64,000 bases of DNA from positions 1 to 64,000 of the forward strand of contig NZ_JAAXOQ010000024.1 in NCBI RefSeq assembly GCF_012396015.1. Reading direction: 5' to 3'. Position numbers and translations under genes: made by a program. The stretch is from Tsukamurella spumae (lineage in GTDB: Bacteria > Actinomycetota > Actinomycetes > Mycobacteriales > Mycobacteriaceae). This document shows positions 1 through 64,000 of the stretch, piece after piece (position 1 is the stretch's first letter; each line of letters opens with the position of its first letter). The notes under the pieces were generated by a model. That model searched no databases. It was given only the letters and a program-made list of their open reading frames with translations, and was not told where the DNA came from.

Positions 1-360
1 GTTGCCGTCTGGTTGGCCTTGTGAGCGACGTTCAGCGGACCGATGGGTTCCGGGGCGGGCGGCACCTCTGGCGCGGTTGCAGGGGCCGCAGACGACGTCT
101 ATGTCGCGGAGGCGGATGGGGAGTCCGCGGGCCTTGCGGTCCCATGCGGCTGGGGTGTGGTCGGCCTGTAGGTCGTCGGTCGCGCCGCAGTCGGTGCAGA
201 ACGGCTGCAGGCGGCGGGCGCGGCGGGACAGGTTGCGCCACGCGGCATCGTATCCGCGGGCGGCGGGGGTCCGCTCCGGGGCCTCCGGGGGCTGGCAGGT
301 GGGGCAGCGGATACCGGTGGGGACGACGTCGCCGCAGTCGATGCATGGGCGTGCGGTCAT
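1..360 (-). CDS. HNH endonuclease (3' end outside window)
   Basis: Reading leftward from ATG at 360, the frame stays open for 120 codons to the window edge, so the C-terminus is missing. The N-terminus has a zinc-ribbon pattern (CIDCG then CPTC). Next come FCTDCGATDDLQADH around residues 54-68 and VVCGPCNRARG around residues 90-100, which is the Cys-x2-Cys plus Asp-His plus Cys-x2-Cys-x-x-Ala arrangement of HNH nucleases. In phages such a nuclease usually sits beside terminase and helps cleave packaging DNA, so terminase genes may lie just beyond the edge. The start overlaps the stop of the upstream 52-residue gene by 4 nt. The family call is firm; the packaging role is inference. Confidence 0.82.
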   Translation of the reverse strand, partial: MTARPCIDCGDVVPTGIRCPTCQPPEAPERTPAARGYDAAWRNLSRRARRLQPFCTDCGATDDLQADHTPAAWDRKARGLPIRLRDIDVVCGPCNRARGAARPGTHRSAERRSQGQPDGN

Positions 361-515
361 CGTGTGCCCTTCTCGATGGCGTCGTGGATGCGGTCGGCCA
401 GCGCGCGTGCCTCCTGGTCGTTCATGAGCCAGTGGTCGTGGCCGAGTCGGATCTCGATGCGGTCGCCGCGGCGTCGGACTGTGCCACCGTCGCCGCCGAG
501 CTGCAGGCGCTTCAC
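357..515 (-). CDS. small protein of the phage-like element, unknown function
   Basis: A 52-residue product starting with GTG at 515, whose start overlaps the upstream stop (GTGA) and whose stop overlaps the ATG of the HNH gene (ATGA). It begins VKRLQLGGDGGTVRRRGDR, basic at the N-terminus, and ends in an acidic helix-like stretch (NDQEARALADRIHDAIEKG). I do not recognise a family. The double translational coupling inside the operon is the main support that it is a gene. Confidence 0.6.
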   Translation of the reverse strand: MKRLQLGGDGGTVRRRGDRIEIRLGHDHWLMNDQEARALADRIHDAIEKGTR

Positions 516-865
516 TCGTCGGCACCGAGGGTGCGGTGGGCGTTGTCCCGCGCGTCGAGCAGGCCGGCGCGCAGCCGGAGCCCTGCGGCATCGCACGCCT
601 CGAGGACCGGGCCGAGGATGCATCGGACGGTGAGCGACAGGGCGGCGGTGGCGAGGTACCCGAAGTACTCCGGGTCGTGGCGGGATAGCCACTCGACGGA
701 CACGCGGTCGGTGGCGTCGTCGTCACCAGCGGACGCGGCCATGTCGTACATCAGCAGCGTGGCGTCGGACTGCAGGCGGTCCACGTTCACGCGGCCGATG
801 GGCATGCCCTGCTCGTCGGAGATGAAGAACTCGGCGGGCGGATTGTGGGGGTCGAACTCGTTCAT
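512..865 (-). CDS. hypothetical protein of the phage-like element
   Basis: A 117-residue product starting at ATG 865, overlapping the stop of the 51-residue zinc-finger gene by 4 nt and overlapping the GTG of the next gene at its own stop. The reading frame stays open far upstream (to 1333), but the junction overlap and the sequence GGAAGGGAACCCC before the ATG favour 865. The N-terminus is acidic (MNEFDPHNPPAEFFISDEQ). The C-terminal half looks helical with one hydrophobic patch (LATAALSLTVRCILGPVLEA) that could be amphipathic rather than membrane-spanning. No family recognised. Confidence 0.7.
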   Translation of the reverse strand: MNEFDPHNPPAEFFISDEQGMPIGRVNVDRLQSDATLLMYDMAASAGDDDATDRVSVEWLSRHDPEYFGYLATAALSLTVRCILGPVLEACDAAGLRLRAGLLDARDNAHRTLGADE

Positions 866-1017
866 GGGGTTCCCTTCCTCGGGGCAGTGATGTTCGTTCG
901 GCAGTTGGTGTGCTCGCGCTCGCAGCCCGGGTACACGGACCACAGGCAGTACGGGCACAGGGATCCGACGGGCGGGCGCACGCGCGGGCCGGTCGGGATC
1001 GGCGGGTAGTTGGTCAT
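862..1017 (-). CDS. 51-residue zinc-finger-like protein
   Basis: It starts at ATG 1017, overlapping the upstream stop (ATGA), and ends overlapping the next ATG by 4 nt. It carries CPYCLWSVYPGCEREHTNC (residues 21-39), a Cys-x2-Cys followed by Cys and His/Cys ligands, so a single zinc-binding knuckle is likely. The upstream 213-residue protein ends in a related motif (CPVCHWPVYPGNAGDHTGGC), so the two may share an ancestor: this small gene could be a duplicated, detached copy of that C-terminal finger. Function unknown; DNA binding or protein contact are both possible. Confidence 0.68.
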   Translation of the reverse strand: MTNYPPIPTGPRVRPPVGSLCPYCLWSVYPGCEREHTNCRTNITAPRKGTP

Positions 1018-1655
1018 GCGGCGGGCGGCCTCCGGTTGATCGTGCGGGGGCAGCCGCCGGTGTGATCGCCGGCGTTGCCCGGGTACACGGGCCAATGGCA
1101 GACGGGGCAGATGGAGCCCTCAGCGGGGAGGCTGGTGTCGGTAGTACTGACACCAGGTTCGGGGTCGGGCACCGACGCAAGCGAACGCTCAGAACTGGTC
1201 GCCTTAGTAAATGCCTGTCCTGTCCTGTCCTGTCCTGTGTTGTCGGTCGGGACGTCCCTGGGGATGTCCCCCGGGACAACAGGATCGGTGCTGGTGGGAA
1301 GGTCCGCAGCTTCCGCTTGGCGCTTGGCCTCACGCTGCCGACGCTTCTTCTCCCGTTCGTGCACGCGCGCCCGGTCGGCTGCCTCGAGCTGGGCGCGCGT
1401 CGTCTGGGTGTTCTCGTAGTCGGTGATGAGCCAGCCCTGCGACTGCGGGGTCCACAAGCCAGCGGCCACCAACTCGGACGGGGTGCCGCGCCGGAACCCA
1501 GGGATCAGGTTCAGGTCGTCGGGCAGCAGCACCCCGTCCGTGCGGTTGGACACCGACCACATGAGCGCGAGGCAGTACGAGCGGAACGCCTCGTCGGACG
1601 CGCGGGCGAAGCGAACGTCCATGAGCCAGCGTTCAGGTAGTCGTGCGTCGGTCAC
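1014..1655 (-). CDS. replication-initiator-like protein with C-terminal zinc finger
   Basis: A 213-residue product starting at GTG 1655, overlapping the upstream stop (GTGA). Residues 10-85 (WLMDVRFARASDEAFRSYCL ... WLITDYENTQTT) resemble the N-terminal winged-helix region of actinophage replisome-organiser or replication-initiation proteins. Residues 90-125 are a highly charged, coiled-coil-like stretch (REKKRRQREAKRQAEAADL). A Thr/Asp-rich linker follows, then a C-terminal Cys-x2-Cys ... His ... Cys knuckle. The linker is encoded by five tandem CCTGT units. A role in starting replication of the element is inference from position and fold-like features; the family match is only approximate. 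Confidence 0.6.
   Translation of the reverse strand: MTDARLPERWLMDVRFARASDEAFRSYCLALMWSVSNRTDGVLLPDDLNLIPGFRRGTPSELVAAGLWTPQSQGWLITDYENTQTTRAQLEAADRARVHEREKKRRQREAKRQAEAADLPTSTDPVVPGDIPRDVPTDNTGQDRTGQAFTKATSSERSLASVPDPEPGVSTTDTSLPAEGSICPVCHWPVYPGNAGDHTGGCPRTINRRPPAA
1214..1238. repeat. five tandem CCTGT units inside a coding region
   Basis: Five perfect head-to-tail copies of CCTGT (ACAGG on the coding strand) lie within the linker of the replication-like gene. The unit is not a multiple of three, so slippage changes the reading frame. Adding one unit would move translation into the frame that is open from 1333 down to 512. Confidence 0.9.
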
Positions 1656-3628: not shown

Positions 3629-4766
3629 TCGGCGGTCCGGGGTCGAGGACCGGTGGACCCGGGTCGACGGCCAACCGAGCGCGCGTCACGGCAAGGGCCT
3701 GCGGTGGATGGGCCGCTACGTCGACGACGAGGGCCGCGAGCACACCAAGGTGTTCCCACGCAGGGTCGACGCGAAGAAGTGGGTCGACGAACAGACTGCG
3801 GCGCTCGTCACCGGGGCCTGGATCTCTCCGGAGCGGGGAGCCGTGACGTTCGGAGCGTTCTACGCGGACTGGTCCGAACGGCAGGTGTGGGCACCGTCGA
3901 CGCGGCAGAATGCGAACGAGACGGCGGCCGGAGTGCCCTTCCGCGGGACCGCCCTCAGCGAGATCCGCCGCTCGCACATCGAGGCGTGGATCAAGGCGAT
4001 GAGCGAGCACCTGGCACCGACCACGATCAAGACGCGGGTCGTGATCGTCCGATCGGTGTTCCGGGCCGCGGTCGCCGACAAGCACATAGCGGCCGATCCC
4101 ACGGCGGGGGTCACACTCCCTCGCACCCGGCGTCGCGAGGCGGCCATGGTGATACCGAGCAGCGACGAGGTGGGCGCGCTCCTGAGGGCCGCACCGGAGG
4201 GGTTTCGGGCGTTCGTCGCGCTCTGCGCTTTCGCCGGCCTGCGCCCCGGTGAGGCACAGGGGTTGCAGGTGGGTGCGGTGGACTTCCTGCGGCGACGGAT
4301 CAACGTCGAGCGACAGATTCAGCGCGACGGATCTTCCGGCCGGCCCGCGACACCGAAATGGGGGTCCGAGCGCGTGGTGTTCGCGGCCGATGAACTCCTC
4401 GCAGAGCTCTCCGCTCACATCGCCACCCACCCACCCGCGGGCGACGGATGGCTGTTCCACGCCGACGGGGTGCCGTGGATCTACTCGAAGGTGGCGTACC
4501 GGTGGCGGCAGACTCTCGGCGCTGCTGGGCTCGACATGCAGGTTAAGTCACTGCGGCACTTCTATGCGTCGGGGTTGATCGCTGAGGGCTGCGACGTGGT
4601 GACCGTACAGCGCGCCATGGGGCACGCTACGGCGACGACGACGCTTTCGACGTACGCGCACCTGTGGCCCTCTGCGGAGGACCGGACGAGGGCTGCAGCG
4701 GGGTCGCTCGCACGGGCCGCGCTCGAGTCTCCTGCGGACTGCCTGCGGACTGGCGAGCATACGTAG
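3615..4766 (+). CDS. tyrosine recombinase / phage-type integrase
   Basis: A 383-residue site-specific recombinase starting at ATG 3615 inside the end of the repressor gene; the open frame extends upstream but that stretch is Arg/Ser noise. An N-terminal AP2-like arm-binding region ([18 protein letters not shown]) is followed by a SAM-like core-binding domain around residues 75-150. The catalytic domain has Arg in [12 protein letters not shown], Lys/Arg in [11 protein letters not shown], His in [10 protein letters not shown] and the nucleophile Tyr in STYAHL. The usual first His of the H-x-x-R box is replaced by Ser, which many integrases tolerate. It should integrate and excise the element at a site just to its right. 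Confidence 0.93.
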
Positions 4767-6344: not shown

Positions 6345-7232
6345 TTGGCCGACGGGACGCGCACCAGTGCGGCACTGCGACGCGGAACGATCGGGGTGGT
6401 CACCGTTCTGGTATCGGGAGCACTGCTGATCCCCGCCTCCGCGACCGCGGCACCGTCGGCCCCCTCCCCGTCCGTTCCCTCCTCGCCGAAGCCGAGCGCG
6501 CCCGCGACGCCGAAGCCTGGCGTCCCGTCCGCGCCGAGGACGAGCGCACCGTCGACCCCGAGCGCCGCACCGACGCAGACCCCCGCCCCGAAGTCGGTGG
6601 CGCCGGGCGATCGCATCGACATCCTGCAGCGCTCGCTCGGTGGCGGCCGCTTCGAATCCCTGCAGTGCACCATGGGTTTCGCGGTCACCGCACCGAACGG
6701 CGAACGCCTCGGCGTCACGGCGGGGCACTGCGGTGCGCCGCAGCAGCCGGTCGGCGTGAAGAAGTGGATCGTCGGCGAGGTCGTGCAGTCGAACGCCCCG
6801 GAGGTCAAGGAGGATCCGAACCGTCCGGGGCACTACTCCCCCGTCGACCCGTTCGGTCCGGACTGGGCCACCTTCCGCCTGACCGATCCGCAGGTGAAGC
6901 TGCTGGCGTCCGCGCCCGGCCTGGCGCCGCGGTCCGTGGGCACCGCCCGGGTCGGTGATCCGGTGTGCCAGCTGGGCTCCGTGAACGGTCGACGGTGCGG
7001 CAAGGTCACCAAGGTCATGAACGACTGGATCGTCTCGGACATCGTCACCACGCAGGGCGACAGCGGCGGGCCGTTGGTGCGCACGTCCGACAACGCGGCG
7101 ATCGGGATCATCACCGACGCGGTCACGCTCACCGACCGCGACTCGGGGCAGGTGATGCAGCGGCTCACGCAGTACTACTCGCTGAACGCGGTGCTCCGCG
7201 CCGCGGGCGGCGCCCAGCTCGCGACGCGCTGA
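6345..7232 (+). CDS. secreted trypsin-like serine protease
   Basis: A 295-residue chymotrypsin-fold (S1) protease. Start TTG 6345 has AGGAGG at 8-nt spacing. A Sec signal peptide (residues 10-37, ending near ATAAPS) leads to a Pro/Ser/Ala-rich linker of about 50 residues. The catalytic domain runs from about residue 88 and shows His in VTAGHC, Asp in PDWATFRL and Ser in TQGDSGGPLV. Cysteine pairs near QCTMGF and the His box, and at CQLGSVNGRRCG, fit disulfides. The protein should be exported and act on the cell surface or in the medium; its substrate is unknown. It stands alone, with a hairpin before its promoter region. Confidence 0.88.
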   Translation: MADGTRTSAALRRGTIGVVTVLVSGALLIPASATAAPSAPSPSVPSSPKPSAPATPKPGVPSAPRTSAPSTPSAAPTQTPAPKSVAPGDRIDILQRSLGGGRFESLQCTMGFAVTAPNGERLGVTAGHCGAPQQPVGVKKWIVGEVVQSNAPEVKEDPNRPGHYSPVDPFGPDWATFRLTDPQVKLLASAPGLAPRSVGTARVGDPVCQLGSVNGRRCGKVTKVMNDWIVSDIVTTQGDSGGPLVRTSDNAAIGIITDAVTLTDRDSGQVMQRLTQYYSLNAVLRAAGGAQLATR

Positions 7233-7760: not shown

Positions 7761-9276
7761 CCGCGGTCCCACTGCCGGTCAGGAAGGGCGTCACGATCTC
7801 GGGTTCGACGGTGCGCGCCGTGGCCGCGGCCCGGGAGGGTGTCACGTCGACGGCGCCGAACGCGCCCGCGGCCGTCGCCACCGTCAGTGTCGCGACGCGC
7901 GCCCGGCGCTGGAAGAAGGTCTCGGTGGTGACGAAACCGATCACGCCGTCGAACTCGAGGGCGGTCCGGGTGCGCGCCACGGTGCCCGCCCCGACGATGA
8001 CGAGCCGCTCGTCGGTGACGCTGCCCAGGTTCGCGTAGCGCACGCGCGCGCAGAGCACCGCCAGCCCCAGGACCACGACGACGCCCACCAGCGGCAGTAT
8101 CTTCCAGATCCACGTCCCCGGCACGACGACGGCGACGGCGATCAGCGCCGCAACGGGAATGACCGATGCCAGGAAGGCTCGGGTGTACCTGCGGCGCAGG
8201 GCCATCGGACCGTGCGCGACGAGCGGCGTCTCCACCGCGCCGCGCCGGCCCAGGATGGCGTCGGCGACGTGCACCGCCTCCGCGCGCGGCGCGGGCGGGA
8301 GCAGCGTCGGGTTGCGGTCGGTGCCCGTCGCGACGGCGCGCAGCTTCGCCCCGCCGGGGATCCGCATCAGCACCGGTTCGTGCAGCTGGACACCCCGGAC
8401 GCGCTTGCGCTCGATCGTGGCCGCCACGGTGGAGATGAGCCCCCGGGTCGTGTGCAGCGCACCGTCGGCGCGGCGGACCAGGCGGAAGCCCCAGAACGCG
8501 AGCACGTAGGCGACGACCGACACGAGCACCGAAAGCACGACGATCAGCACGATCGCGCCCGGAATGATCACGGCCGCACCGAGATCGAGGATCCTGGCGA
8601 ACCACGACTCCGCGAGCTCCGAGCCGCGCTCGCGCAGCCCCGCCTCGTCGACGATGCGGAACCCGATGCCCGCGCCGGCCGCCACCACGGCGAACCCGGT
8701 GAGCGAGAAGGGGGCGAAGCGGATCCAGCCCGGGCGCAGCCGCGCGAGCTCCTCTTCGGGCGGCTCGGGGATCGTGACGGGCGCGTTGTCGCCCTCGGCG
8801 TGCAGGTCCGGGTTCGACGGTGCCGCCGGAGCCGCCGTGCGCCGCAGCAGGTCCCGGCCCAGTTGCTCCGCGAGCGCGGCCGGGATCGGGTCGAGTACGA
8901 GCGCGGACTCCTTGCCGCCCACGCCGGTGCCGACGACGACCTTGCGCAGCGACAGGGCGCGCTCGATCGGCCCGGCGGTCACGTCCACGCTGCGGATCCG
9001 GTCACGGCGTGCCGTGGCAGAGATCCTGCGCACCAGTCCGTGCCGTAGTTCGAGCTGGTCCTCGGTGACGCGCCAGCGGGTGGTGAGCCACGGCAGGAGG
9101 CCGACCAGCACGCTGATCGCCACACCGGCGATGACGAAGAACACCGGTCCCACGGCGCGCCCCAGGAAGAAGACGCCGATCAGCGCCGGAATGAGCGACG
9201 GGATGGACTTGATCACCCGGGTCCCGATCCCCCACGGCGACAGCCGGTTCCACTCGGTCTCGTCAGGTCGCGTCAT
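7747..9276 (-). CDS. membrane protein with bacterial PH domains (YdbT-like)
   Basis: A 509-residue integral membrane protein. An N-terminal hairpin of two helices (ALIGVFFLGRAVGPVFFVIA) precedes a bPH2 domain (TRWRVTEDQLELRHGLVRRI, then DRIRSVDVTAGPIERAL). A second pair of helices lies around residues 205-270, followed by a second PH-like segment (GALHTTRGLISTVAATIERKRV) and a third after another helix pair near 370-400. This repeated membrane/PH layout is the YdbT (DUF304) pattern of Bacillus, whose YdbS-YdbT pair protects against bacteriocins. It overlaps the upstream small PH gene by 14 nt, so the two probably act together. Confidence 0.85.
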   Translation of the reverse strand: MTRPDETEWNRLSPWGIGTRVIKSIPSLIPALIGVFFLGRAVGPVFFVIAGVAISVLVGLLPWLTTRWRVTEDQLELRHGLVRRISATARRDRIRSVDVTAGPIERALSLRKVVVGTGVGGKESALVLDPIPAALAEQLGRDLLRRTAAPAAPSNPDLHAEGDNAPVTIPEPPEEELARLRPGWIRFAPFSLTGFAVVAAGAGIGFRIVDEAGLRERGSELAESWFARILDLGAAVIIPGAIVLIVVLSVLVSVVAYVLAFWGFRLVRRADGALHTTRGLISTVAATIERKRVRGVQLHEPVLMRIPGGAKLRAVATGTDRNPTLLPPAPRAEAVHVADAILGRRGAVETPLVAHGPMALRRRYTRAFLASVIPVAALIAVAVVVPGTWIWKILPLVGVVVVLGLAVLCARVRYANLGSVTDERLVIVGAGTVARTRTALEFDGVIGFVTTETFFQRRARVATLTVATAAGAFGAVDVTPSRAAATARTVEPEIVTPFLTGSGTAVSGA

Positions 9277-12289: not shown

Positions 12290-13510
12290 ATGCGCATCCG
12301 CCCCGTCGTGTCCCGTCGCGCCCTGACGGTGGTGGCCGCAACGGCCGTCACCGCCGCCCTCGTCGCGAGCTGCACGACCTCGGCGAACGACGCGATGTCG
12401 CTGCCGGACGCGAGTCAGAAGATCACCGACTCGACGCCCTTCTTCGACCTACTGCGCCCGCAGATCACCTCGAGCGCCAGGAACGGCGCGGTCGACGTGC
12501 AGCCCGGGCTTCCGGTCAAGGTCACGGCCAGCGGCGGCACCCTCACCAAGGTCGTGATGACCAACCCGGACGGCAAGGAGGTGGCCGGCAAGCTCAGCGA
12601 GGACGGCCGCTCGTGGAGCAACTCCGAGGTGCTCGGCTACAACAAGCAGTACAAGCTGCGCGCGGAGGCCAACGGCATCGGCGGCGTGAACGTGGCCAAC
12701 GCGACCTTCAGCACCCAGTCGCCGAACAACCAGACCCAGGCCTACTTCAGCACCGTCGGCGAGCCCGTGGTGGGCGTCGGGCAGACGGTCGGCGTGAAGT
12801 TCGACGAGGCGATCAAGGACCGGGTCGCCGCGCAGCGCGCCATCACCGTCGTCACCGAGCCGCCGGTCGAGGGCGCGTTCTACTGGATCAGCCCGACCGA
12901 GGTGCGCTGGCGCCCGCAGAACTACTTCAAGCCCGGCACCAAGGTCAGCGTGGACGTGAAGATCTACGGCGTGGACCTCGGCAACGGCACTTTCGGCCAG
13001 AAGGACGCGTCGACGAAGTTCACCATCGGCGAGGAGACAATCGCGACCGTCTTCGACAAGGACAAGATCATCCGGATCAGCAAGGGCGGCAAGGTGGTCA
13101 AGACGATGCCCACCTCGATGGGCGAGCCCAACAACGCCACCCCCAACGGGATCTACATGATCGGCGACCACCGCGATCAGATGATCATGGACTCGTCCAC
13201 CTACGGCGTTCCGGTCAACTCCGCCAACGGATATCGCACCCTCGTGGACTACGCGACCCAGATGTCCTACAGCGGCATCTACGTGCACAGCGCGCCGTGG
13301 TCGATCAGCCAGCAGGGCGTGAGCAACGCCAGTCACGGCTGCCTCAACGTGAGCCCCGAGAACGCGCTCTGGTTCCTGCAGAACACGCGCCGGGGCGACA
13401 TCGTCAAGGTCAGCGACACCATCGCCACAACCCTGGAGGGTAACGACGGACTAGGCGACTGGAACGTCCCGTGGGAGGTCTGGCGCGCCGGCAACGCGAA
13501 GACCGGGTAG
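12290..13510 (+). CDS. lppS: L,D-transpeptidase lipoprotein (LdtMt2/LppS type)
   Basis: A 406-residue periplasmic enzyme that makes 3-3 (mDap-mDap) peptidoglycan cross-links, the major type in Mycobacteriales. The start ATG 12290 follows TGGAGTGAAGA. A lipoprotein signal has the lipobox LVASC with acceptor Cys 28. Two Ig-like domains occupy about residues 50-255. The YkuD catalytic domain follows, with YVHSAPWS and the SHGCLNVSP box carrying the nucleophile Cys near residue 350, then a short C-terminal subdomain (WNVPWEVWRAG) seen in LdtMt2. The position near bcp, acpS and fas matches M. tuberculosis lppS (Rv2518c). Its last 60 nt overlap the convergent ndh gene. Confidence 0.95.
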   Translation: MRIRPVVSRRALTVVAATAVTAALVASCTTSANDAMSLPDASQKITDSTPFFDLLRPQITSSARNGAVDVQPGLPVKVTASGGTLTKVVMTNPDGKEVAGKLSEDGRSWSNSEVLGYNKQYKLRAEANGIGGVNVANATFSTQSPNNQTQAYFSTVGEPVVGVGQTVGVKFDEAIKDRVAAQRAITVVTEPPVEGAFYWISPTEVRWRPQNYFKPGTKVSVDVKIYGVDLGNGTFGQKDASTKFTIGEETIATVFDKDKIIRISKGGKVVKTMPTSMGEPNNATPNGIYMIGDHRDQMIMDSSTYGVPVNSANGYRTLVDYATQMSYSGIYVHSAPWSISQQGVSNASHGCLNVSPENALWFLQNTRRGDIVKVSDTIATTLEGNDGLGDWNVPWEVWRAGNAKTG

Positions 13511-14767
13511 CGCCTCGGCGGCGTCCGCGGGAACGGGTTCGACGGTGACCGTCGGCGCACCGTCGAAGCCCGGACGGGCCGTGCCGACGAAGGCCCGCAG
13601 CCAGTCGACGAGAACCGCGACGCGGTTGCCCATGCCCGCCAAGTAGTACAGGTGCACGGCCAGCCAGCCGGCCCACGCGAGGACGCCGGTCATGCCCGGC
13701 AGGCCCATCGGCGGCTGGAGCACGGCGTGCGGGGTGTCGATCATCGCCATGCTGCCCTTGTCCAGGTAGCGGAAGTGCGTGCCGGGGCCCGTCTTTCCGC
13801 GGATCACGTCGGCGGCGTGCCGGCCCTGCTGCATCGCGACGGGGCTCTGCCCGGGCAGGCCGTTCAGGCTGGTCATGTCGCCGAGGGCGAAGACATCCGC
13901 GCGGCCGCCGACCGTGAGGTCCCGGTTGATGAGCAGCCGGCCCGCGCGGTCGGTCTCGCAACCCGTGGCCTCGGCGATCACGCCCGCGAGCGGGGTGGCC
14001 TTGACGCCGGCCGACCAGACGACGGTGCCGGCCTCGATCTCGCGCTCGGCCCCGGTCTTGTCCTTGACGGTGACGGTCTCGCCCTCGATCGCGGTCACGA
14101 ACGTACCGGTGTGCACCTGCACGCCGGCCTTCTCCAGCGCGGCCCGGGTGAAGCCCGAGAGGGTGCCGCCGTAGACGGGCAGCACCTCGTCGGCGCCCTC
14201 GACCAGGTGGATGCGGACCTGCGCGTCGTCGTGGAAACGGCGGGCGAGCTCGGCGACCTGGCCCGCGACCTCGACGCCGGTGGCGCCGGCGCCCACCACC
14301 ACGAAGGTGCGGGCCGGGCTCTCGGCGGGTGCGGCGAACGCGGCGCGCATGCGTTCGCGGAGGTTCTCGGCGTCCTCCAGGGTCTTGAGGGCGAAGGTGC
14401 GGCTCTCCCACTCGTCGTGACCGAAGTACGCCTGCGCGGCGCCGGCGGCGACGATGAGGTAGGTGTAGCCGATCTGCTCGATGCCGTCCGCGGTAGCGTA
14501 GGTGACCACCTTGCGCTCGGCGTCGACCTCGGTGACGTACCCGGTGATCGCCTCGACGGTGCGCCGACCGCGGAGCACGTCCGCAATGGGCGGCGCGATG
14601 CGCGCACCCGTGGTGACGCCGGTGGCCACCTGGTACAGCAGCGGCTGGAAGAGGTGGGTGCCGTTCGCCGAGATCAGGGTCGTCTCGATGTCCGACTTGG
14701 CGAGCTGCTTCGCGGCGGCGAGGCCACCGAATCCCGAGCCGATCACCACGACATGAGTGCTGCGCAT
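13451..14767 (-). CDS. ndh: type II NADH dehydrogenase
   Basis: A 438-residue non-proton-pumping NADH:menaquinone oxidoreductase of the membrane face. The start ATG 14767 has AAGGAGGAG upstream. The FAD Rossmann motif is VIGSGFGGLAAAKQL (residues 6-20), the NADH motif VVGAGATGVEVAGQV (near 165-180), and the second FAD contact ADVFALGDMTSLNG (near 300). The quinone-site signature is the AMQQGRHAADVI region, and a C-terminal hydrophobic anchor VLAWAGWLAVHLYYLAGMGN follows. It is divergent from a LysR regulator across 124 bp with clear inverted repeats, so that regulator probably controls it. The 3' end overlaps the transpeptidase gene by 60 nt. Confidence 0.93.
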   Translation of the reverse strand: MRSTHVVVIGSGFGGLAAAKQLAKSDIETTLISANGTHLFQPLLYQVATGVTTGARIAPPIADVLRGRRTVEAITGYVTEVDAERKVVTYATADGIEQIGYTYLIVAAGAAQAYFGHDEWESRTFALKTLEDAENLRERMRAAFAAPAESPARTFVVVGAGATGVEVAGQVAELARRFHDDAQVRIHLVEGADEVLPVYGGTLSGFTRAALEKAGVQVHTGTFVTAIEGETVTVKDKTGAEREIEAGTVVWSAGVKATPLAGVIAEATGCETDRAGRLLINRDLTVGGRADVFALGDMTSLNGLPGQSPVAMQQGRHAADVIRGKTGPGTHFRYLDKGSMAMIDTPHAVLQPPMGLPGMTGVLAWAGWLAVHLYYLAGMGNRVAVLVDWLRAFVGTARPGFDGAPTVTVEPVPADAAEALPGLRVAGAPDLPRDVPVA

Positions 14768-15755: not shown

Positions 15756-15796
15756 GCCCGACGGTGCGCCGCCGCCGTGACCGATACGGTTACGGC

Positions 15797-16269
15797 ATGA
15801 CTACTTCCGCGCGCCTGCAGCCGGGTGATCCGGCACCGTCGTTCACCCTGCCCGACCAGGACGGCACGCCCGTCTCCCTCGCGGACTACCGCGGCCGGCG
15901 GGTGGTGCTGTACTTCTACCCCGCCGCGATGACGCCGGGCTGCACCAAGCAGGCCTGCGACTTCCGCGACAACCTGGCCGACTTCAGCGAGGCCGGCCTC
16001 GCGGTGCTGGCATCTCCCCGGACAAGCCGGAGAAGCTCAAGAAGTTCGTCGAGCGCGATGCCCTCACCTTCCCGCTCCTCTCGGACCCGGATAAGCACGT
16101 GCTTACCGAGTACGGGGCCTTCGGTGAGAAGATGATGTACGGCAAGACCGTGACGGGCGTGATCAGGTCGACGTTCGTCATCGACGCGGAGGGGAACATC
16201 GAGGTGGCGCAGTACAACGTGCGCGCCACCGGCCACGTCGCCAAGTTGCGCCGCGACCTGAAACTCTGA
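15797..16269 (+). pseudogene. bcp: bcp-type peroxiredoxin, disrupted by a 1-nt frameshift
   Basis: A thiol peroxidase that reduces peroxides with thioredoxin. The N-terminal frame begins MTTSARLQPGDPAPSFTLPD and carries the peroxidatic and resolving cysteines in TPGCTKQACDFRDN (Cys near 49 and 54). At about 16008-16011 the frame breaks: GTGCTGGCATCTCC lacks one G relative to the expected GTG-CTG-GGC-ATC-TCC. In the next frame the rest of the family sequence continues intact (ISPDKPEKLKKFVERDA to the YGKTVTGVIRSTFVID region) and stops at 16267-16269. All other family positions are conserved, so this is either a very recent mutation or a sequencing error. The order with lppS, acpS and fas matches M. 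tuberculosis. Confidence 0.9.
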
Positions 16270-17519: not shown

Positions 17520-17609
17520 GCCATGCGCGCCGAACCCTCGCGGTCACGACGAACCTCGGCGGCTACCAGGACTCTCCGCGCATCCGCACTTCCACGTCCG
17601 CTGGAACGC

Positions 17610-17646: not shown

Positions 17647-17656
17647 TGCGTGAGAC

Positions 17657-49105: not shown

Positions 49106-49723
49106 TTACTCCGGGACGCGCGCCGCCAGCTCGCGGAGCGGTTCCACCAGCGAACTCAGTGCTCGCGCACGATGACTCACGGCATTCTTCTCGTCCGGGG
49201 ACATTTCCGCCGCGGTCACCGCCGAGCCGTCGGGGAGGAACACCGGGTCGTACCCGAAGCCCCCGTCGCCCCGGGGCTCGCGCAGGATCGTGCCCCGCCA
49301 GACACCGCGCACCGTCGACTCCCCGGCATCGGAGACGAGTGCGCAGGCGGAGACGAACTCCCCGCCCCGCCGCGCGGCGGGTACGTCGGAGAGCTGCGCG
49401 AGCAGCAGCGCGGTGTTCGCCGGATCGTCTCCGTGGCGCCCGGACCAGCGGGCGGACAGCACGCCCGGCATGCCGTTCAGCGCGTCGACGCAGATCCCCG
49501 AATCGTCCGCGAGACACGGCAGGCCGGTCCGCTCGTACCCCTGTCGGGCCTTGATCAGCGCGTTGCCCTCGAACGACGGTGCGTCCTCCGGCAGTTCCTC
49601 GAAGGGCTCGACCTCGTCGAGGCCCACGACCTCCAGCCCGACGATGCCCGCGTCCGCCACGACCTGCCGCAACTCGCGCAGCTTCTTGGCGTTCCGGGAC
49701 GCGAGCAGCAAGCGCGAGGTCAC
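49106..49723 (-). CDS. rdgB: RdgB/HAM1 non-canonical purine NTP pyrophosphatase
   Basis: A 205-residue enzyme that hydrolyses dITP, XTP and ITP to keep them out of nucleic acids. Start GTG 49723 overlaps the rph stop (GTGA). Family motifs: [15 protein letters not shown] (residues 5-19), [60 protein letters not shown] and [11 protein letters not shown]. Length is standard. The rph-rdgB coupling is common in actinobacteria and equals Rv1340-Rv1341. Confidence 0.96.
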
Positions 49724-50502: not shown

Positions 50503-50537
50503 GCGCCCAGCCTATCGCCTACGACGGTGCCGGGTCG

Positions 50538-51327: not shown

Positions 51328-51984
51328 TCACGTGGCGATCGCGCCCACCTGCCGTGAATTCCCGGCACCCGGGCGGGTTCGGCCGCGGCGGCCGACGAGC
51401 ACCGCGGCGATGATGCCGCCGATCGCTCCCCACAGATGCCCCTGCCACGAAACACCGGGCTGACCGGGGAGAACGCCCCACAACATGCCGCCGTAGAGGA
51501 CCATGAGCACCACACCGACGACGAGGTCGAGTGCCTTGTGCGTGAACAGTCCGCGCAGTGCCAGGTAGGTCATCCAACCGAACAGGACCCCGGAGAGTCC
51601 GATCACGACGGTGCCGCTCCCGCCGGTGAGCCAGACGCCGATGCCCGCCACCACCCAGATGATCGCGGTGGCGATCAGGAACCGGCCCGCTCCCGCGGCC
51701 AGACCGACGAAGCCGAGGATCAGGGCCGGGACGCTGTTGGCGGCCAGGTGCTCCCACCCGCCGTGCAGAAGCGGCGCCATCACGACGCCCCGGACCACGC
51801 CGTCGCCGGAGCGCGGGTGGATCCCCCACTGGTCCAGGGAGTTGCCGAGTACGGTGTCGATCCCCTCGAGCACCCACAGCGCCGCCACGAAGACGATGAT
51901 CAGGACGGCCGAGCGCCCCGCCGTACTGCCGGCGACCCGGCTCGACAGGGAGCGCGGCGCACCGTCGTTGCTGGGAACCGTCAT
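51328..51984 (-). CDS. rhomboid-family intramembrane serine protease
   Basis: A 218-residue protein starting at ATG 51984 with GAGGAGG upstream. Six transmembrane segments are apparent. HGGWEHLAANSVPALILGFV carries the His/Asn of the second helix, GLSGVLFGWMTYLALRG the catalytic Ser (GxSG), and WQGHLWGAIGGIIAAV the catalytic His. The C-terminus is short and basic. Equivalent to Rv1337, in the same order after cysM. It cleaves membrane proteins inside the bilayer; substrates are unknown. Confidence 0.93.
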   Translation of the reverse strand: MTVPSNDGAPRSLSSRVAGSTAGRSAVLIIVFVAALWVLEGIDTVLGNSLDQWGIHPRSGDGVVRGVVMAPLLHGGWEHLAANSVPALILGFVGLAAGAGRFLIATAIIWVVAGIGVWLTGGSGTVVIGLSGVLFGWMTYLALRGLFTHKALDLVVGVVLMVLYGGMLWGVLPGQPGVSWQGHLWGAIGGIIAAVLVGRRGRTRPGAGNSRQVGAIAT

Positions 51985-52018: not shown

Positions 52019-52987
<969 letters not shown>

Positions 52988-53710: not shown

Positions 53711-54319
53711 CTATTCCGGCTCGCGCTCGAGCATCACCGACACCAGCACGTCCAGCAGGGCCGAGAGCCAGTGGTAGACGTCCACGTGCCCCGCACGCGT
53801 CGGATCGTCCGACGACGGCCCGTCGGGCAGGTCCGCCGTGATGCCGAGCAGCGTGCCCAGCGCGAGGCGCAGGTCGTTGACGCAGGTCAGCCAGTCCTGC
53901 GCCTCGCTCTCGGTGAGGGTGACGGTGCCGGCCCGTTCGGGAAGGGTCGCGAGCACGGTCTGCGCCGCGGCCCGCTTCGCGTCGATCACCTCGGGCTCGT
54001 TGAGGGAGCGCAGCGCGCCGTTGAGGTCCTTGGCGAACTCGCCCGACGGTGCGTCCTCCGCGCCCGGCGCGTTCGCGTCGGGCCGGTAGAAGTCCGGCAG
54101 CAGCCGCCGCAGCACCGTCTCCGGGGGCGGCTCGGAGTGCCCCGTCCGCAGCCCGGTGAGTTCGGCCAGCTCGTCGTGGGGGGCGGAGTCCTCACGCTCG
54201 TCGAACAGCTCGATCAGGGAGCCGACGAGGGACCGGACGAGGCCGACCTCCTCCGGATCCATCTTCGAGACGAAGCGGACATCCCCGCGTACGCCCCGCT
54301 TGACCTGCCAGTTACGCAC
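53711..54319 (-). CDS. DUF2017 protein (Rv1332-like)
   Basis: A 202-residue mainly helical soluble protein from GTG 54319, directly adjacent to the clpS stop. It opens with MRNWQVKRGVRGDVRFVSKM and contains EVGLVRSLVGSLIELFDERE, PDFYRPDANAPG, and a C-terminal YHWLSALLDVLVSVMLER. These match DUF2017, always next to clpS in actinobacteria. The conserved pairing suggests a part in ClpS/ClpC-mediated N-degron proteolysis, but no function is established. Confidence 0.88.
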   Translation of the reverse strand: MRNWQVKRGVRGDVRFVSKMDPEEVGLVRSLVGSLIELFDEREDSAPHDELAELTGLRTGHSEPPPETVLRRLLPDFYRPDANAPGAEDAPSGEFAKDLNGALRSLNEPEVIDAKRAAAQTVLATLPERAGTVTLTESEAQDWLTCVNDLRLALGTLLGITADLPDGPSSDDPTRAGHVDVYHWLSALLDVLVSVMLEREPE

Positions 54320-54685: not shown

Positions 54686-56020
54686 GTGACGGTAGATGAA
54701 AACGGGCCCGACTCCCCCTCGCGGAGCTCCGCCCTGCTCACCGATCAGTACGAACTGACGATGCTGGCGGCGGCCCTGCGGGACGGCACCGCGCACCGTC
54801 CGTGCGTCTTCGAGGTGTTCGCCCGCCGCCTGCCCACGGGGCGCCGGTACGGCGTGGTCGCGGGTACCGCCCGCGTCCTCGACGAGCTGCGACGGTTCCG
54901 ATTCGGGCCCGACGAGCTCGCGGTCGTCGAGCGCTTCCTCGACGCGGACACGCTGGCCTGGCTGCGGGACTACCGCTTCACCGGCGAGATCGACGGCTAT
55001 CGCGAGGGCGAGCTGTACTTCCCCGGCTCCCCGCTCCTGACGGTGCGCGCGAGCTTCGCCGAGGGCGTGATCCTCGAGACGCTGATCCTGTCGATCCTCA
55101 ACCACGACAGCGCGATCGCCTCCGCCGCGGCGCGCATGGTGTCCGCGGCGGCGGGCCGCCCGCTCATCGAGATGGGCTCGCGGCGCACGCACGAGCAGGC
55201 CGCGGTGGCATCGGCCCGCGCCGCGTACCTCGCCGGCTTCACCACGACCTCGAACATGGAGGCCGCCCGGACCTACGGCGTACCGTCGGGCGGCACGGCG
55301 GCGCACGCCTTCACCCTGCTGCACACGGGCCCGGACGGCCCGGACGAGGAGGCCGCGTTCGTGGCCCAGGTCGCTGCGCAGGGCGCCGGCACGACGCTGC
55401 TGGTGGACACCTACGACATCACCGAGGGCGTCAACCGCGCCGTGCGCGCGGCGGGACCGGAGCTCGGCGGCGTGCGGATCGACTCGGGCGATCTCGGCAT
55501 CATCACCCGCCAGGTCCGGGCACAGCTCGACGGCCTGGGCGCGACGCGGACGAAGATCGTCGTCTCGGGAGACCTCGACGAGTACGCGATCGGGGCGTTG
55601 CGCGCCGAGCCCATCGACGTCTACGGCGTCGGCACCTCGCTGGTCACCGGCTCGGGCGCGCCCACGGCGGGGATGGTCTACAAGCTCGTGGAGGTCGACG
55701 GCCTGCCGGTCGCGAAACGCAGCTCGCACAAGGAGACCCAGGGCGGGGAGAAGCGCGCGGTCCGGCTCGCGCGCAGCACCGGCACGATCGTCGAGGAGGT
55801 GCTGTTCCGGCCCGGCGCGACACCGACGGTGCCCGCACACCTGTCCGCGACGCCGCTGCAGATCCCGCTGGTGCGCGGCGGCGACCAGGTCGACGGGCTG
55901 CCGACCCTCGAGGACGCGCGGGCGCACCTGCGCGACGCCCTGGTGACGCTGCCGTGGGAGGGCCTGGGCCTGTCCAACGGCGAGCCGGCGATCCCGACGC
56001 GGTTCGAGGAGCGCCGATGA
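54686..56020 (+). CDS. pncB: nicotinate phosphoribosyltransferase
   Basis: A 444-residue enzyme converting nicotinate and PRPP to nicotinate mononucleotide in NAD salvage. Start GTG 54686. Key segments are [53 protein letters not shown] with the catalytic His, the [23 protein letters not shown] region, [16 protein letters not shown], and [17 protein letters not shown]. The C-terminal part has [11 protein letters not shown] and [13 protein letters not shown]. It overlaps pncA by 4 nt (ATGA), so the two salvage steps are translated together. Confidence 0.96.
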
Positions 56021-57351: not shown

Positions 57352-58323
57352 CTACGACGGTTGCCCGGCCTGGACGGCCGACAGTTCAGCGAGCAGCTCG
57401 TCGGGGTACTCCATCGGCAGCGAGTGCGTCCCGTCCGGCCAGACCCGGACCGTCGCGTTCGGGAGGGTACGGGCCCGCTGCTCGGCGGCAGCGGTGTCGG
57501 TGACCGCGCTCCGGCCGGCGAGTCCGACGAAGACGGGCATCGCGAGCCGGGCGAGCGCGGCATCGTCGAGCTGGACGGGCGTCGGGAGCGCGGCGCGGTA
57601 CCCCGCCGCGCCGGCGTCGATCATGGCGCCGATCGGGCTGCCGGTGGCGTCGGCCTCGTCGGCCCCGCCGATGGACGAGAGCCCCTTCCGCCGCCACGAC
57701 TCGGGCAAGAAGGGCAGCGCCGAGGGCAACGTCGCGACGTACATCTGCCAGCGCAGCCCGGCGAAGACTTCGATCGGCTCCCACAGTGTCAGGGTGGCCA
57801 CCCGGTCGGGGTGGCGCGCCGCGAGGTTCGCGGCGCTCCACGCCCCGAAGGAGTGCCCGACGAGGTGTGCGCGGCCGATCCCGAGGGCCGTCATCGTCTC
57901 CGCGAGCCAGGCCGCCTGGTCGTCGGCGCCGGCCAGCGGCCGGTCCTGCACGCTCCTGCCCGCGTCGCCCAGCGCGTCGACGGCGTAGACCTCCCGATCG
58001 CGCAGGCGCGCCAGCATGTCCGCCCACATGGGGACGCCCGACGACCGGCCCGGCACCAGCAGGATCGGCGCGCCCCCGGGCCGGGACGTCCCGAACCGGT
58101 AGGCGCGGACGATGCCGTATCCGGTGCGCACGTCCCGCGTCTCCGACGGTGCCGGCAGGTCGCGGAAGGCGCGGTCGTACCGCTCGAGGTAGGTCGCGCG
58201 CGCGTCCGCCGACCGCCAGTACCCGACGGGGCTCGGGTCGCGCACGAGATAGGCGCCCACCGCACCGAGGATCACCGTCGCGGCCGCCCCGACCACCACC
58301 GCTCGCCGGATCCGTCGTCCCAT
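57352..58323 (-). CDS. alpha/beta hydrolase, membrane-anchored or exported
   Basis: A 323-residue protein starting at ATG 58323 with AAGGAGG upstream. The N-terminal RRIRRAVVVGAAATVILGAVGAYLV is an uncleaved signal anchor or signal peptide. The hydrolase fold then shows ILLVPGRSSGVPMWADML (oxyanion region), the nucleophile elbow LVGHSFGAWSAANLAARHPD (Ser near 161), and the catalytic His in PDGTHSLPMEYPDELL; the acid is probably Asp in an intervening loop. The substrate is unknown. It diverges from a TetR regulator across 71 bp with tandem repeats, so it is probably controlled by that protein. Confidence 0.88.
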   Translation of the reverse strand: MGRRIRRAVVVGAAATVILGAVGAYLVRDPSPVGYWRSADARATYLERYDRAFRDLPAPSETRDVRTGYGIVRAYRFGTSRPGGAPILLVPGRSSGVPMWADMLARLRDREVYAVDALGDAGRSVQDRPLAGADDQAAWLAETMTALGIGRAHLVGHSFGAWSAANLAARHPDRVATLTLWEPIEVFAGLRWQMYVATLPSALPFLPESWRRKGLSSIGGADEADATGSPIGAMIDAGAAGYRAALPTPVQLDDAALARLAMPVFVGLAGRSAVTDTAAAEQRARTLPNATVRVWPDGTHSLPMEYPDELLAELSAVQAGQPS

Positions 58324-60180: not shown

Positions 60181-60524
60181 GCACCGTCACCACCCACGTC
60201 CTCGACACCGCGCGCGGTGTCCCGGCAGGCGGCGTACCGGTCCGGATGGACCGGATCGGCCCCGACGGCACCGTCGACCCCGTGGCGCACGGCGTCACGG
60301 ACGACGACGGGCGCGTCAAGGACCTCGGCCCCGACGACCTGCCGGCCGGCGTCTACCGACTCACCTTCGACGTCGCCGGCTACGCCGCGACCACCGGGCA
60401 GGAGAACTTCTTCCCCGAGGTCGCCATCACCTTCCGCCTGATCGCGGTCGACGGCGCCGTGCCCCATCACCACGTCCCCCTCCTGCTCAGCCCGTTCCAG
60501 TACTCCACCTACAAAGGAAGCTGA
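60177..60524 (+). CDS. 5-hydroxyisourate hydrolase
   Basis: A 115-residue transthyretin-like enzyme acting between uricase and OHCU decarboxylase. Start ATG 60177 overlaps the previous stop. The family signature THVLDTARGVPAGGVPVRMD opens the protein (His 7), and it closes with HHHVPLLLSPFQYSTYKGS. The terminal YRGS tetrapeptide of most HIU hydrolases is replaced by YKGS, a conservative change. It is followed five bases later by uricase. Confidence 0.95.
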   Translation: MSTVTTHVLDTARGVPAGGVPVRMDRIGPDGTVDPVAHGVTDDDGRVKDLGPDDLPAGVYRLTFDVAGYAATTGQENFFPEVAITFRLIAVDGAVPHHHVPLLLSPFQYSTYKGS

Positions 60525-60529: not shown

Positions 60530-61435
60530 ATGGCAATCCACCTGGGCCCCAACCAGTACGGCAAGGCCGAGAACCGTGTGGTGCGCATCTACCGCGATAC
60601 CCCTCGCCACACGATCCGCGACCTGAACGTCTCGTCCGCCCTCCGCGGCGACTTCACGGACGCGCACATCAGCGGCGACCAGTCCGCGGTTCTGCCCACC
60701 GACACCCAGAAGAACACCGCCTTCTCCTTCGCCAAGGAGAAGGGCGTGGGGGCCATCGAGGACTACGCCCTCACCCTGGGCGGTCATTTCATCGACTCCA
60801 CCCCCAAGGCCGACGGTGCCCGGATCGAGGTGCACGAGTACCCGTGGGACCGGATCCTGGTCGACGGCGCGGAGCACGACCACGCCTTCGTCCGCTCGGG
60901 CGGCGGCATCCGCTCGACCGTCGTCAACATCGATGGCCGCGGAGCGGACCGAAAGGCCCACGTGGTCACCGGCATTCACGACCTGACACTGCTCAAGTCG
61001 ACCGGCTCCGAGTTCCACGGCTTCCTCAAGGACAAGTACACGACGCTGCAGGAGACCGACGATCGGATCCTCGCGACCTCCCTGGTGGCGAAGTGGCGTT
61101 ACGCGCACACCGACGTGGACTGGGACGCCTCGTTCTCCTCGATCCGCGCGATCCTGCTCAAGCGCTTCGCGCAGATCCACAGCAAGGCCCTGCAGCAGAC
61201 CCTGTACGGCATGGGCGAGTCCGTGCTCGAGCAGCACCCCGAGGTCGCGGAGATCAAGTTCTCGGCGCCGAACAAGCACCACTTCCTCGTGGACCTCTCG
61301 CCCTTCGGCGTGGAGAACCCGGGCGAGGTCTTCATCGCCGCCGACCGCCCGTACGGCCTCATCGAGGCGAGCGTCGTCCGTGACGACGCCCCCGAGGCCG
61401 GCTCGGCGTGGCACGGCGTCCCCGGATTCTGCTAG
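60530..61435 (+). CDS. urate oxidase (uricase)
   Basis: A 301-residue cofactor-free oxidase turning urate into 5-hydroxyisourate. Start ATG 60530. Visible motifs are GPNQYGKAENRVVRIYRDTP with the catalytic Lys, LPTDTQKNTAFSFAKEKGVG with the catalytic Thr, TLLKSTGSEFHGFLKDKYTT, SLVAKWRY and PNKHHFLVDLSPFGVENPGE carrying the third catalytic His. Length is typical. It is the third gene of a four-gene unit with the permease. Confidence 0.96.
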   Translation: MAIHLGPNQYGKAENRVVRIYRDTPRHTIRDLNVSSALRGDFTDAHISGDQSAVLPTDTQKNTAFSFAKEKGVGAIEDYALTLGGHFIDSTPKADGARIEVHEYPWDRILVDGAEHDHAFVRSGGGIRSTVVNIDGRGADRKAHVVTGIHDLTLLKSTGSEFHGFLKDKYTTLQETDDRILATSLVAKWRYAHTDVDWDASFSSIRAILLKRFAQIHSKALQQTLYGMGESVLEQHPEVAEIKFSAPNKHHFLVDLSPFGVENPGEVFIAADRPYGLIEASVVRDDAPEAGSAWHGVPGFC

Positions 61436-62832: not shown

Positions 62833-62867
62833 CCCGCCCGACCCGACCCGGCGGCACCGTCGCCCTC

Positions 62868-62903: not shown

Positions 62904-62942
62904 GTCGGCTCCGGGCCGGCTCGGATCCACCGGACGAAAGGG

Positions 62943-62971
62943 TTGACGTGACTCCCATCACATGCGACAAT
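62943..62971 (+). promoter_or_regulatory. glyoxylate operon promoter with CRP/GlxR-type site
   Basis: TTGACG (62943-62948), 17 bp, then GACAAT (62966-62971). CGTGA-CTCCCA-TCACA (62947-62962) matches the site before the urate operon in position and sequence. Downstream, both leaders also share TTCCG ... CGAAAG ... AGGTC, so about 80 bp look duplicated. The rest of 62833-63074 has no gene. Confidence 0.68.
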
Positions 62972-63074
62972 TCCATTGTACGGAAATGTTCTTTCCGACA
63001 GGCGAAAGCTAGCAGGTCGATTCGACCTCGCCGGAACCTGAACCGCCGTACGCCCTGCCTGAAGAAGGAGCCCC

Positions 63075-63908
63075 ATGAGCGCCAACGCCCTCGCCAAGTA
63101 CACGGTGAACTGCTCGATCCTGCTGACCGACCTGCCCGCCCCGGAGCGCCCCCGCGCCGTCCGCGAGGCGGGCTTCGAGGCCGTCGAGTTCTGGTGGCCG
63201 TTCGCGACCGCCGTCCCCGGGGACCGTCAGGTCGACGCCTTCGTGACCGCGATCGAGGACGCCGGCGTGCAGCTCACCGGCCTGAACTTCTTCGCGGGCG
63301 ATATGCCCGACGGCGACCGCGGCATCCTCTCCGATCCCGCCCGCACCGCCGAGTTCCGCGACAACATCGAGGCCACCGTCGGCATCGGCGAGCGCCTGGG
63401 CACCCCGGCCTTCAACGCCCTGTACGGCAACCGGATCAACGGTGTCGCGCCCGAGGAGCAGGACGCCGTCGCGGCGGAGAACCTCGCCGCGGCCGCCCGC
63501 GCCGCGGCGCGCATCGGCGCCGTCGTCCTGATCGAGCCCGTGAGCGGCGCGCCCCGGTACCCGCTCCGGACCGCCGCCGACGCGGTCGCGGTCATGGACC
63601 GGGTGCGCGACGAACACGGCACCGACGCGCTGCGCCTGCTCGCCGACCTGTACCACCTGCAGGTCAACGGCGACGACGTGAGCGCAGCGATCGACGCCCA
63701 TGCGGGCCGCATCGGGCACGTCCAGATCGCCGACGATCCGGGTCGCGGCGAGCCCGGCACCGGCACCCTCGACCTCGCCGGGCACCTCGCCCACCTCGAG
63801 CGCGTCGGCTACCGCGGCAGGATCGGCCTCGAATACAAGCAGAGCCTGAGCGACCCCTTCGCCTGGCTCCCCGTCGCCGAGCGCAGCGCCGTCATCGCCG
63901 CCCCCTGA
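63075..63908 (+). CDS. hyi: hydroxypyruvate isomerase
   Basis: A 277-residue TIM-barrel enzyme interconverting hydroxypyruvate and tartronate semialdehyde in glyoxylate assimilation. Start ATG 63075 has GAAGAAGGAG upstream. AKYTVNCSILLTDLPAPERP, GFEAVEFWWPFATAVPG, LTGLNFFAGDMPDGDRGILS, VVLIEPVSGAPRYPL (metal-binding Glu), LRLLADLYHLQVNGDD and IGHVQIADDPGRGEPGTGTL match the Hyi family. It precedes a tartronate semialdehyde reductase gene by 26 nt, the usual order of the gcl-hyi-glxR pathway. Confidence 0.92.
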   Translation: MSANALAKYTVNCSILLTDLPAPERPRAVREAGFEAVEFWWPFATAVPGDRQVDAFVTAIEDAGVQLTGLNFFAGDMPDGDRGILSDPARTAEFRDNIEATVGIGERLGTPAFNALYGNRINGVAPEEQDAVAAENLAAAARAAARIGAVVLIEPVSGAPRYPLRTAADAVAVMDRVRDEHGTDALRLLADLYHLQVNGDDVSAAIDAHAGRIGHVQIADDPGRGEPGTGTLDLAGHLAHLERVGYRGRIGLEYKQSLSDPFAWLPVAERSAVIAAP

Positions 63909-63934
63909 TCCCCTCCGCAGCAAAGGAACTCCTC

Positions 63935-64000
63935 ATGACGAACATCGCCTTCATCGGACTCGGCATCATGGGCAGCCCGATGGCCGTGCACCTGCAGAAC
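63935..64000 (+). CDS. tartronate semialdehyde reductase (5' end only)
   Basis: Only 22 codons are in the window, starting at ATG 63935. MTNIAFIGLGIMGSPMAVHL holds the NAD(P)-binding GLGIMG motif of the 3-hydroxyisobutyrate dehydrogenase family. After hydroxypyruvate isomerase, the expected member is 2-hydroxy-3-oxopropionate reductase, which makes D-glycerate from tartronate semialdehyde. The family assignment is firm; the exact substrate rests on context. Confidence 0.82.
   Translation, partial: MTNIAFIGLGIMGSPMAVHLQN

Follow-up and report, generated by a model that had tools for sequence, protein, structure and literature searches.

A genus-specific, frame-independent 9-base word in Tsukamurella genomes as a candidate DNA uptake sequence

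Introduction

Sequence-specific DNA uptake is, to our knowledge, established only in Gram-negative families, the Neisseriaceae with their DNA uptake sequences (DUS) and the Pasteurellaceae with their uptake signal sequences (USS), the latter having extended flanks, and we know of little evidence for natural transformation in the Mycobacteriales. Among other highly iterated words, the cyanobacterial HIP1 (highly iterated palindrome 1) is a palindromic octamer with thousands of copies and a function that has not been settled. Excerpts of two papers describe the DUS of Neisseria as present in thousands of copies within and between genes, changing in a dialect-like manner between clades, conserved in permissive core DNA and rare in acquired DNA, with some copies paired in inverse orientation within hairpins that resemble terminators (PMC2397512, PMC3630211); the conserved words lie within more divergent core surroundings, as was preliminarily also described for the USS of Haemophilus influenzae (excerpt of PMC2397512). 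Chi of Escherichia coli is polarised and occurs about once per 5 kb (excerpt of PMC8022716). Here we describe a word that is iterated throughout a 64,000-nucleotide stretch of Tsukamurella spumae (positions 1 to 64,000 of contig NZ_JAAXOQ010000024.1, assembly GCF_012396015.1; the whole stretch is referred to as the window), namely the 9-mer GCACCGTCG and its reverse complement CGACGGTGC, with the 8-mer core CACCGTCG.

We find that the word is a real feature of the whole genome, specific to its genus and subject to selection or drive at the level of DNA. We propose that Tsukamurella uses it genus-wide for self-recognition and that it may serve as a DNA uptake sequence, a reading to which we assign a probability of about 0.45. 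It resembles the DUS of Neisseria in its thousands of copies within and between genes, in its dialect-like change between clades and in the conservation of copies in permissive core DNA, and differs in its sequence and in its GC-rich Gram-positive host with tad/flp genes; its copies are sparse in inserted elements, and it forms some inverted pairs, which are only modestly enriched. It shares the length of nine bases with the USS of Pasteurellaceae, as given in an excerpt, and the conserved word in less conserved surroundings with that of H. influenzae, while its flanks, unlike those of the USS, are almost free of information. Among the roles that a preliminary description of the window had listed for such a word (uptake signal, Chi- or KOPS-like signal, methylation site, HIP1-type repeat), an uptake signal appears to fit best.

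Copy number and sequence context of the word

The window contains 53 exact copies of the word, 30 on the plus and 23 on the minus strand, and 70 exact copies of the core. The preliminary description had recognised the iteration correctly, with counts (about 49 and about 63) that were slightly low; all eight of its example sites are real, although four minus-strand starts had been placed one base too high (correctly 33659, 17632, 8815 and 27573), and the copy at 6450, assigned to a protease, falls outside the called genes. The word is the commonest 9-mer of the window, where Markov models of orders 0 to 3 expect 1.9, 3.9, 5.5 and 8.3 copies and the 27 one-base variants have 0 to 17 copies apiece; the maximal-order expectation of 48.5 is uninformative because the word's own 8-mers feed the model. 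The genome of the window (G000; 4,461,018 bases in 79 contigs) has 3,261 copies (1608 + 1653; 0.73 per kb, about one per 1.4 kb), compared with 74 (34 + 40) of the reversed word. A 464-kb sample of this genome, consisting of 20 stretches of 20 kb and the window, holds 358 copies where Markov orders 1 to 5 expect 28, 38, 55, 93 and 170, and its one-base variants, at 0 to 114 copies each, are all far below the word. The excess thus stands when the count is extended beyond the window, and, as in DUS and USS, copy number goes beyond what composition would give.

Regarding coding context, genes were called with a simple in-house caller, and copies in overlapping calls may count twice (328 + 30 + 1 compared with 358). 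In the 464-kb sample, 328 copies are genic, compared with 44.9 +/- 5.7 in synonymous-codon shuffles within genes, and all six registers exceed the shuffles (sense, 63 vs. 1.5, 90 vs. 23 and 7 vs. 0.5; antisense, 4 vs. 0.2, 35 vs. 8.8 and 129 vs. 10.8). Thirty copies are intergenic (0.56 per kb, compared with 0.80 per kb in genes) and one crosses a gene boundary. The use of the word in several frames and outside genes, which the preliminary description had put forward, is therefore borne out, its argument against simple codon bias holds, and an origin from one codon pair in one frame, which it had offered as a possible refutation, is excluded; the same independence of orientation and frame, in genes and between them, characterises DUS and USS. 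Of the tripeptides encoded by the word, APS, DGA and GTV occur at 1.8–1.9 times expectation and the others at 0.6–1.8 times. Codon or dipeptide bias was ruled out by the shuffles together with the occupancy of all six registers, an RNA-level role was dropped given the near balance of sense (160) and antisense (168) copies, and a longer motif was rejected, since the flanks are almost uninformative apart from a preceding C or G and, in most cases, a following A or G. The excess of the word lies at the DNA level.

Distribution in Tsukamurella and related genera

Copies were counted in a family sample of 201 genomes (15 Tsukamurella and 186 others, G201 lying outside this count) and in a class sample of 394 genomes, 392 of them non-Tsukamurella; each species is represented by one genome, and the non-Tsukamurella control groups are small and of mixed species. 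The 15 Tsukamurella genomes have 827–4,002 copies each, 14 of them at 0.26–0.82 per kb and G198 at 0.165 per kb. By reading of the tables, all 186 other family genomes lie below 0.23 per kb and no genome of the class sample outside Tsukamurella is above about 0.18 per kb, so that G198 alone would not stand out.

Observed and shuffle-expected counts are 285/38 in G000, 206/33 in G070, 186/32 in T. paurometabola (G053), 71/14 in a mixed Tsukamurella set and 42 vs. 9.9–11.9 in the basal G168, and the word is the top 9-mer by z-score in these five of the six Tsukamurella samples; the sixth, G198 (40 kb of genes only, unranked), has 9 copies where 1.2–2.2 are expected, with the G form leading. Seven non-Tsukamurella groups are at 0.8–1.8 times the shuffle expectation (Mycobacterium-like, 18/11.4; Gordonia/Williamsia, 17/9.5; Rhodococcus/Dietzia/Hoyosella, 2/1.6; Micromonosporaceae, 6/7.4; Micrococcales, 1/0.9; GC-rich proteobacteria, 5/5.0; three other family genomes, 7/3.8). 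The comparison across genera suggested in the preliminary description thus shows strong enrichment in the Tsukamurella samples only. The core is mildly enriched (1.8-fold) in the Mycobacterium-like (101/55) and Gordonia/Williamsia (47/26) samples, and the genus word may therefore have grown from a weaker, older bias; in many GC-rich actinobacteria of the family and class samples, copies of the word already outnumber the reversed control.

The core ranks first among the 8-mers of the basal G168, where ACACCGTCG, with A before the core, is as enriched (38/11.8) as GCACCGTCG (42/11.9), whereas in G000 the G form is enriched 7.0-fold and the forms with the other three preceding bases 2.7–3.4-fold. 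The contrast is dialect-like, with a looser form of the word in the basal species.

Conservation of copies

The window was aligned with eight sequences from related genomes (83–93% identity, 26–51 kb each). Relative to codon-matched sites, substitutions inside copies were at 0.21 in the closest species, G125 (8 vs. 37.4), at 0.59–0.73 in six others and at 1.01 in G053, and flank divergence was 0.93 of expectation in the closest species and 1.26–1.52 in the other seven. The inside/flank substitution ratio of the word was 0.23–0.53 in seven of the eight comparisons and 0.79 in G053, compared with medians of 0.75–0.93 for other frequent 9-mers and 0.65–0.92 for one-base variants; ratios as low were found for between 3 of 55 and 9 of 127 other 9-mers in the seven comparisons, and for 35 of 114 in G053. 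Copies are thus better kept than their flanks, yet sited in variable spots, which is the pattern described for the DUS of Neisseria and, preliminarily, for the USS of H. influenzae. On the G000 and G125 branches, polarised by outgroup majority, there was one loss where 14.2 were expected and there were four gains where 1.2 were expected; exact conservation in G125 was also higher for the word (40/45) than for its one-base variants (83/114, p = 0.035).

Spacing, inverted pairs and mobile DNA

Spacing of the word is Poisson-like, without clear departure from random placement, and regular spacing was rejected. Inverted pairs with 2–24 bases between copies, counted irrespective of terminators and summed over 15 genomes with G201 left out, number 197 (1.5-fold) and 261 (2.0-fold), compared with 130 expected; G201 has 25 and 38. 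A clear example is the hairpin at 17606–17651 (Table 1), both copies of which are intact in four of seven aligned relatives (G125, G030, G158 and T. tyrosinosolvens), while one copy is altered in G137 and G070 and G086 has paired changes in both copies; G053 is not aligned there.

Regarding mobile DNA, the parts read of the elements inserted in tadA (described below) have a low density of the word, 14 copies in 120.6 kb (0.07–0.20 per kb), compared with 8.6 by an order-2 Markov model; sequence is shared among the elements of G137, G188 and G158, and most inserts were partly read, so that the 14 copies are not independent samples. Tsukamurella paurometabola DSM 20162 has a chromosome of 4,379,918 bases and a plasmid of 99,806 bases (excerpt of PMC3156402). 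On pTpau01, the half with insertion-sequence and mobilisation genes has 6 copies in 50 kb and the half with non-ribosomal peptide synthetase genes 38 in 49.8 kb. Phage TIN2 has 3 copies in 50 kb, and phage TIN3 has a single copy in 30 kb.

Candidate uptake genes

Profile and family surveys over 16 Tsukamurella and 14 control genomes detected ComEC in all 16 Tsukamurella, with a ComEA-like gene adjoining comEC in T. paurometabola, and a TadA-type secretion ATPase in 15, none being found in the fragmented G198. In G000 there is a tadA-tadB-tadC-flp-like cluster (Pfam T2SSE, T2SSF, T2SSF and DUF4244), in which the flp and tadE names were assigned by position, and this cluster is adjoined by a gene (L230:14053-14382) with a TfoX_N domain, which is known from competence regulators elsewhere but is widespread. 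Micrococcus luteus is described, in an excerpt of PMC4322843, as transforming through a tad/flp cluster of the same gene order.

The tadA gene is interrupted at one place, near codon 334 of 393, in six of the 16 genomes (G070, G137, G188, G158, G113 and G168) by inserts of about 10–43 kb that start with TTATCTGTA (stretches L265/L268, L258/L269, L263/L270, L264/L271, L256/L272 and L237/L266). The remaining tad cluster resumes after 15–43 kb in the first five; in G168, flp, its start missing, resumes after about 10 kb (L266), and neither tadB nor tadC was found. In G053 (L228/L273) and G188 (L270), the flp-like DUF4244 gene is in two parts about 12 kb apart. Altogether, tadA or flp is interrupted in seven of the 16 Tsukamurella and uninterrupted in eight, G198 not being judgeable. 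Two tyrosine-recombinase genes lie at the far ends read of the G137 and G113 inserts, followed in G137 by a DUF6262 gene, an arrangement reminiscent of Tn554. Multicopper-oxidase and P-type ATPase genes are present in the tadA insert of G188. The recurrent insertions in tadA and flp are suggestive, and would be in line with a targeting of competence genes, because mobile elements often interrupt such genes (excerpt of PMC4774983).

Functional interpretation

We tentatively infer that Tsukamurella takes up DNA, that the word is the recognised element and that a protein recognises it. A DNA-binding component of a competence apparatus, which might comprise a Tad/Flp pilus with ComEA and ComEC as in M. 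luteus, would prefer word-bearing DNA. Uptake and recombination of conspecific DNA would then be more frequent, and this bias, a form of molecular drive, would let copies build up and persist wherever the core genome is permissive. The more far-reaching proposal, that this could be the first DNA uptake signal in Actinobacteria, with Tsukamurella competent via the Tad/Flp pilus and recognising its own CACCGTCG-core DNA, with clade dialects, and with mobile elements targeting tadA or flp to stop uptake, is possible and is held more tentatively. Among the matches listed in literature searches (subscription papers not covered), the word was not reported in print, in agreement with the preliminary description, and those papers among them that contain either string of bases bear titles on other subjects. 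If the uptake reading is true, the presence of such a word and its dialects in GC-rich Gram-positive bacteria of the Mycobacteriales would raise the questions of an independent origin and of a different receptor, and would point to natural transformation in this order. Even with another reader, a conserved, frame-independent and genus-specific 9-mer with about 800–4,000 copies per genome needs explanation, and the word is a ready bait for finding its reader.

Several observations weigh against an uptake sequence. ComEC was also detected in 10 of the 14 control genomes and secretion ATPases in all 14, so that neither is diagnostic. The density of the word does not follow the integrity of the tad locus: six genomes in which tadA or flp is interrupted (G053, G070, G113, G137, G158 and G188) still have 0.43–0.62 copies per kb, and because of this a link between sparse copies and a lost Tad pilus, suggested by G168 and G198, was dropped. 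No paper combining Tsukamurella and natural transformation was found (subscription papers not covered). The eight alignments have branches in common, and G158 and the T. tyrosinosolvens record, which have the same bases in the hairpin stretch, seem to belong to one species; the advantage in exact conservation over one-base variants is significant only in G125 and not in six others, and in T. paurometabola exact conservation is lower than that of the variants (2/22 vs. 19/63, p = 0.08). The enrichment of inverted pairs is only 1.5–2.0-fold. Phage TPA2 of T. paurometabola, with 17 copies in 50 kb and about fourfold enrichment in genes (17 vs. 3.9), is a clear exception, unexpected under a purely chromosomal drive. 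Finally, a recombination signal is a possible role given the presence of RecC (PF04257), the sole RecBCD subunit searched, in all 16 Tsukamurella.

Among the alternatives, the one that survives best, although we consider it unlikely, is a genome-wide binding site of a chromosomal protein, either HIP1-like or for a nucleoid or repair protein, maintained by site-by-site selection and unrelated to uptake. Any sequence-specific reader would suit a conserved word that is used at the DNA level, in both orientations and at random spacing, and uptake in Tsukamurella is not demonstrated in the literature found. However, about 3,000 randomly spaced sites in variable spots would be kept more easily by recombination bias than by selection on each one, and a genus-limited spread needs a genus-limited reader, of which none has been identified, no search for one having been made. 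The word has thousands of copies like HIP1 but differs from its own reverse complement, and the HIP1-type repeat of the preliminary description is disfavoured, the word not being a palindrome.

A Chi-like recombination signal read by RecBCD is improbable. The word is, like Chi, frequent in native DNA, it is sparse in inserted elements, and RecC is present, but leading-strand polarity is absent: in T. paurometabola (G053), where the first gene was taken for DnaA by eye, without a family search, 97 of 206 sampled copies are leading (confidence interval 0.40–0.54), in G070, where the origin was not located, 109 of 218 sampled copies, and in neither genome does the best division into opposed halves exceed the null. 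The word is also 3–4 times denser than Chi of E. coli. The strong origin-to-terminus polarity of KOPS (FtsK-orienting polar sequences) is likewise not seen, and a polar role of the KOPS or E. coli Chi type, together with the strand skew around the origin for which the preliminary description had advised looking, finds no support in these genomes.

For a DNA methylation or restriction-protection site the chances are slimmer still. Of the methyltransferase families, PF00145 occurs in 14 and PF01555 in four of the 16 Tsukamurella, in keeping with the methylation site considered in the preliminary description, but neither was found in G000 despite its 3,261 copies, other methyltransferase families not having been searched; restriction sites are usually avoided in genomes, and the enrichment of the word runs opposite to this. 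An origin of the word as a side effect of biased codons, dipeptides or mutation is hardly credible: other 8- and 9-mers related to the word are also frequent in the 464-kb sample, and the excess over the reversed control in many GC-rich actinobacteria and the 1.8-fold core enrichment would suit it, but the shuffles, the use of six registers and intergenic DNA, and the rarity of all 27 one-base variants stand against it.

Copies in the window and gene order

Table 1. Positions of the word and of the associated hairpin in the window; every word copy is an exact match.
Feature	Position	Strand	Remark
word copy	3891..3899	+	
word copy	6450..6458	+	outside called genes
word copy	6546..6554	+	outside called genes
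word copy	6990..6998	-	
word copy	7806..7814	-	
word copy	8459..8467	+	
word copy	8815..8823	-	
word copy	12750..12758	+	outside called genes
word copy	13557..13565	+	
word copy	14020..14028	-	
word copy	14554..14562	-	
word copy	15417..15425	+	
word copy	15759..15767	-	outside called genes
word copy	15833..15841	+	outside called genes
hairpin, terminator-like	17606..17651	.	between convergent called genes; one word copy per arm; -44.1 kcal/mol (55-nt stretch)
word copy	17616..17624	+	left arm of hairpin
word copy	17632..17640	-	right arm of hairpin
word copy	20193..20201	+	
word copy	20603..20611	-	
word copy	21141..21149	+	
word copy	22134..22142	+	
word copy	25579..25587	+	
word copy	25948..25956	+	
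word copy	26875..26883	+	
word copy	27325..27333	+	
word copy	27525..27533	-	
word copy	27573..27581	-	
word copy	29668..29676	+	
word copy	31184..31192	-	
word copy	32482..32490	+	
word copy	33659..33667	-	within sirtuin-like gene 33198-34016
word copy	34049..34057	+	
word copy	34693..34701	-	
word copy	36362..36370	+	outside called genes
word copy	37000..37008	-	
word copy	38175..38183	+	
word copy	40840..40848	+	
word copy	41410..41418	+	
word copy	42748..42756	+	
word copy	44686..44694	-	
word copy	45387..45395	+	
word copy	46535..46543	-	
word copy	49309..49317	+	
word copy	49574..49582	-	
word copy	50522..50530	-	outside called genes
word copy	51606..51614	-	
word copy	51959..51967	+	
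word copy	52896..52904	+	
word copy	54044..54052	-	
word copy	55824..55832	-	
word copy	58144..58152	-	
word copy	60268..60276	+	in gene 60177-60524 (hydroxyisourate hydrolase by gene order in L166)
word copy	60811..60819	-	
word copy	62854..62862	+	outside called genes

The gene order of the window matches that of T. tyrosinosolvens NZ_LR134452.1 (L166), with one protein of 1405 amino acids being 91% identical, and the shared order includes genes of urate catabolism, RNase PH and a type I polyketide synthase. This 386-kb record is filed as plasmid 10 of T. tyrosinosolvens, yet it may be a piece of the chromosome because its genes follow the order of the window. Amid housekeeping genes, both L166 (12368-12649) and the like region of the window have a gene annotated as entry exclusion lipoprotein TrbK, a doubtful name.

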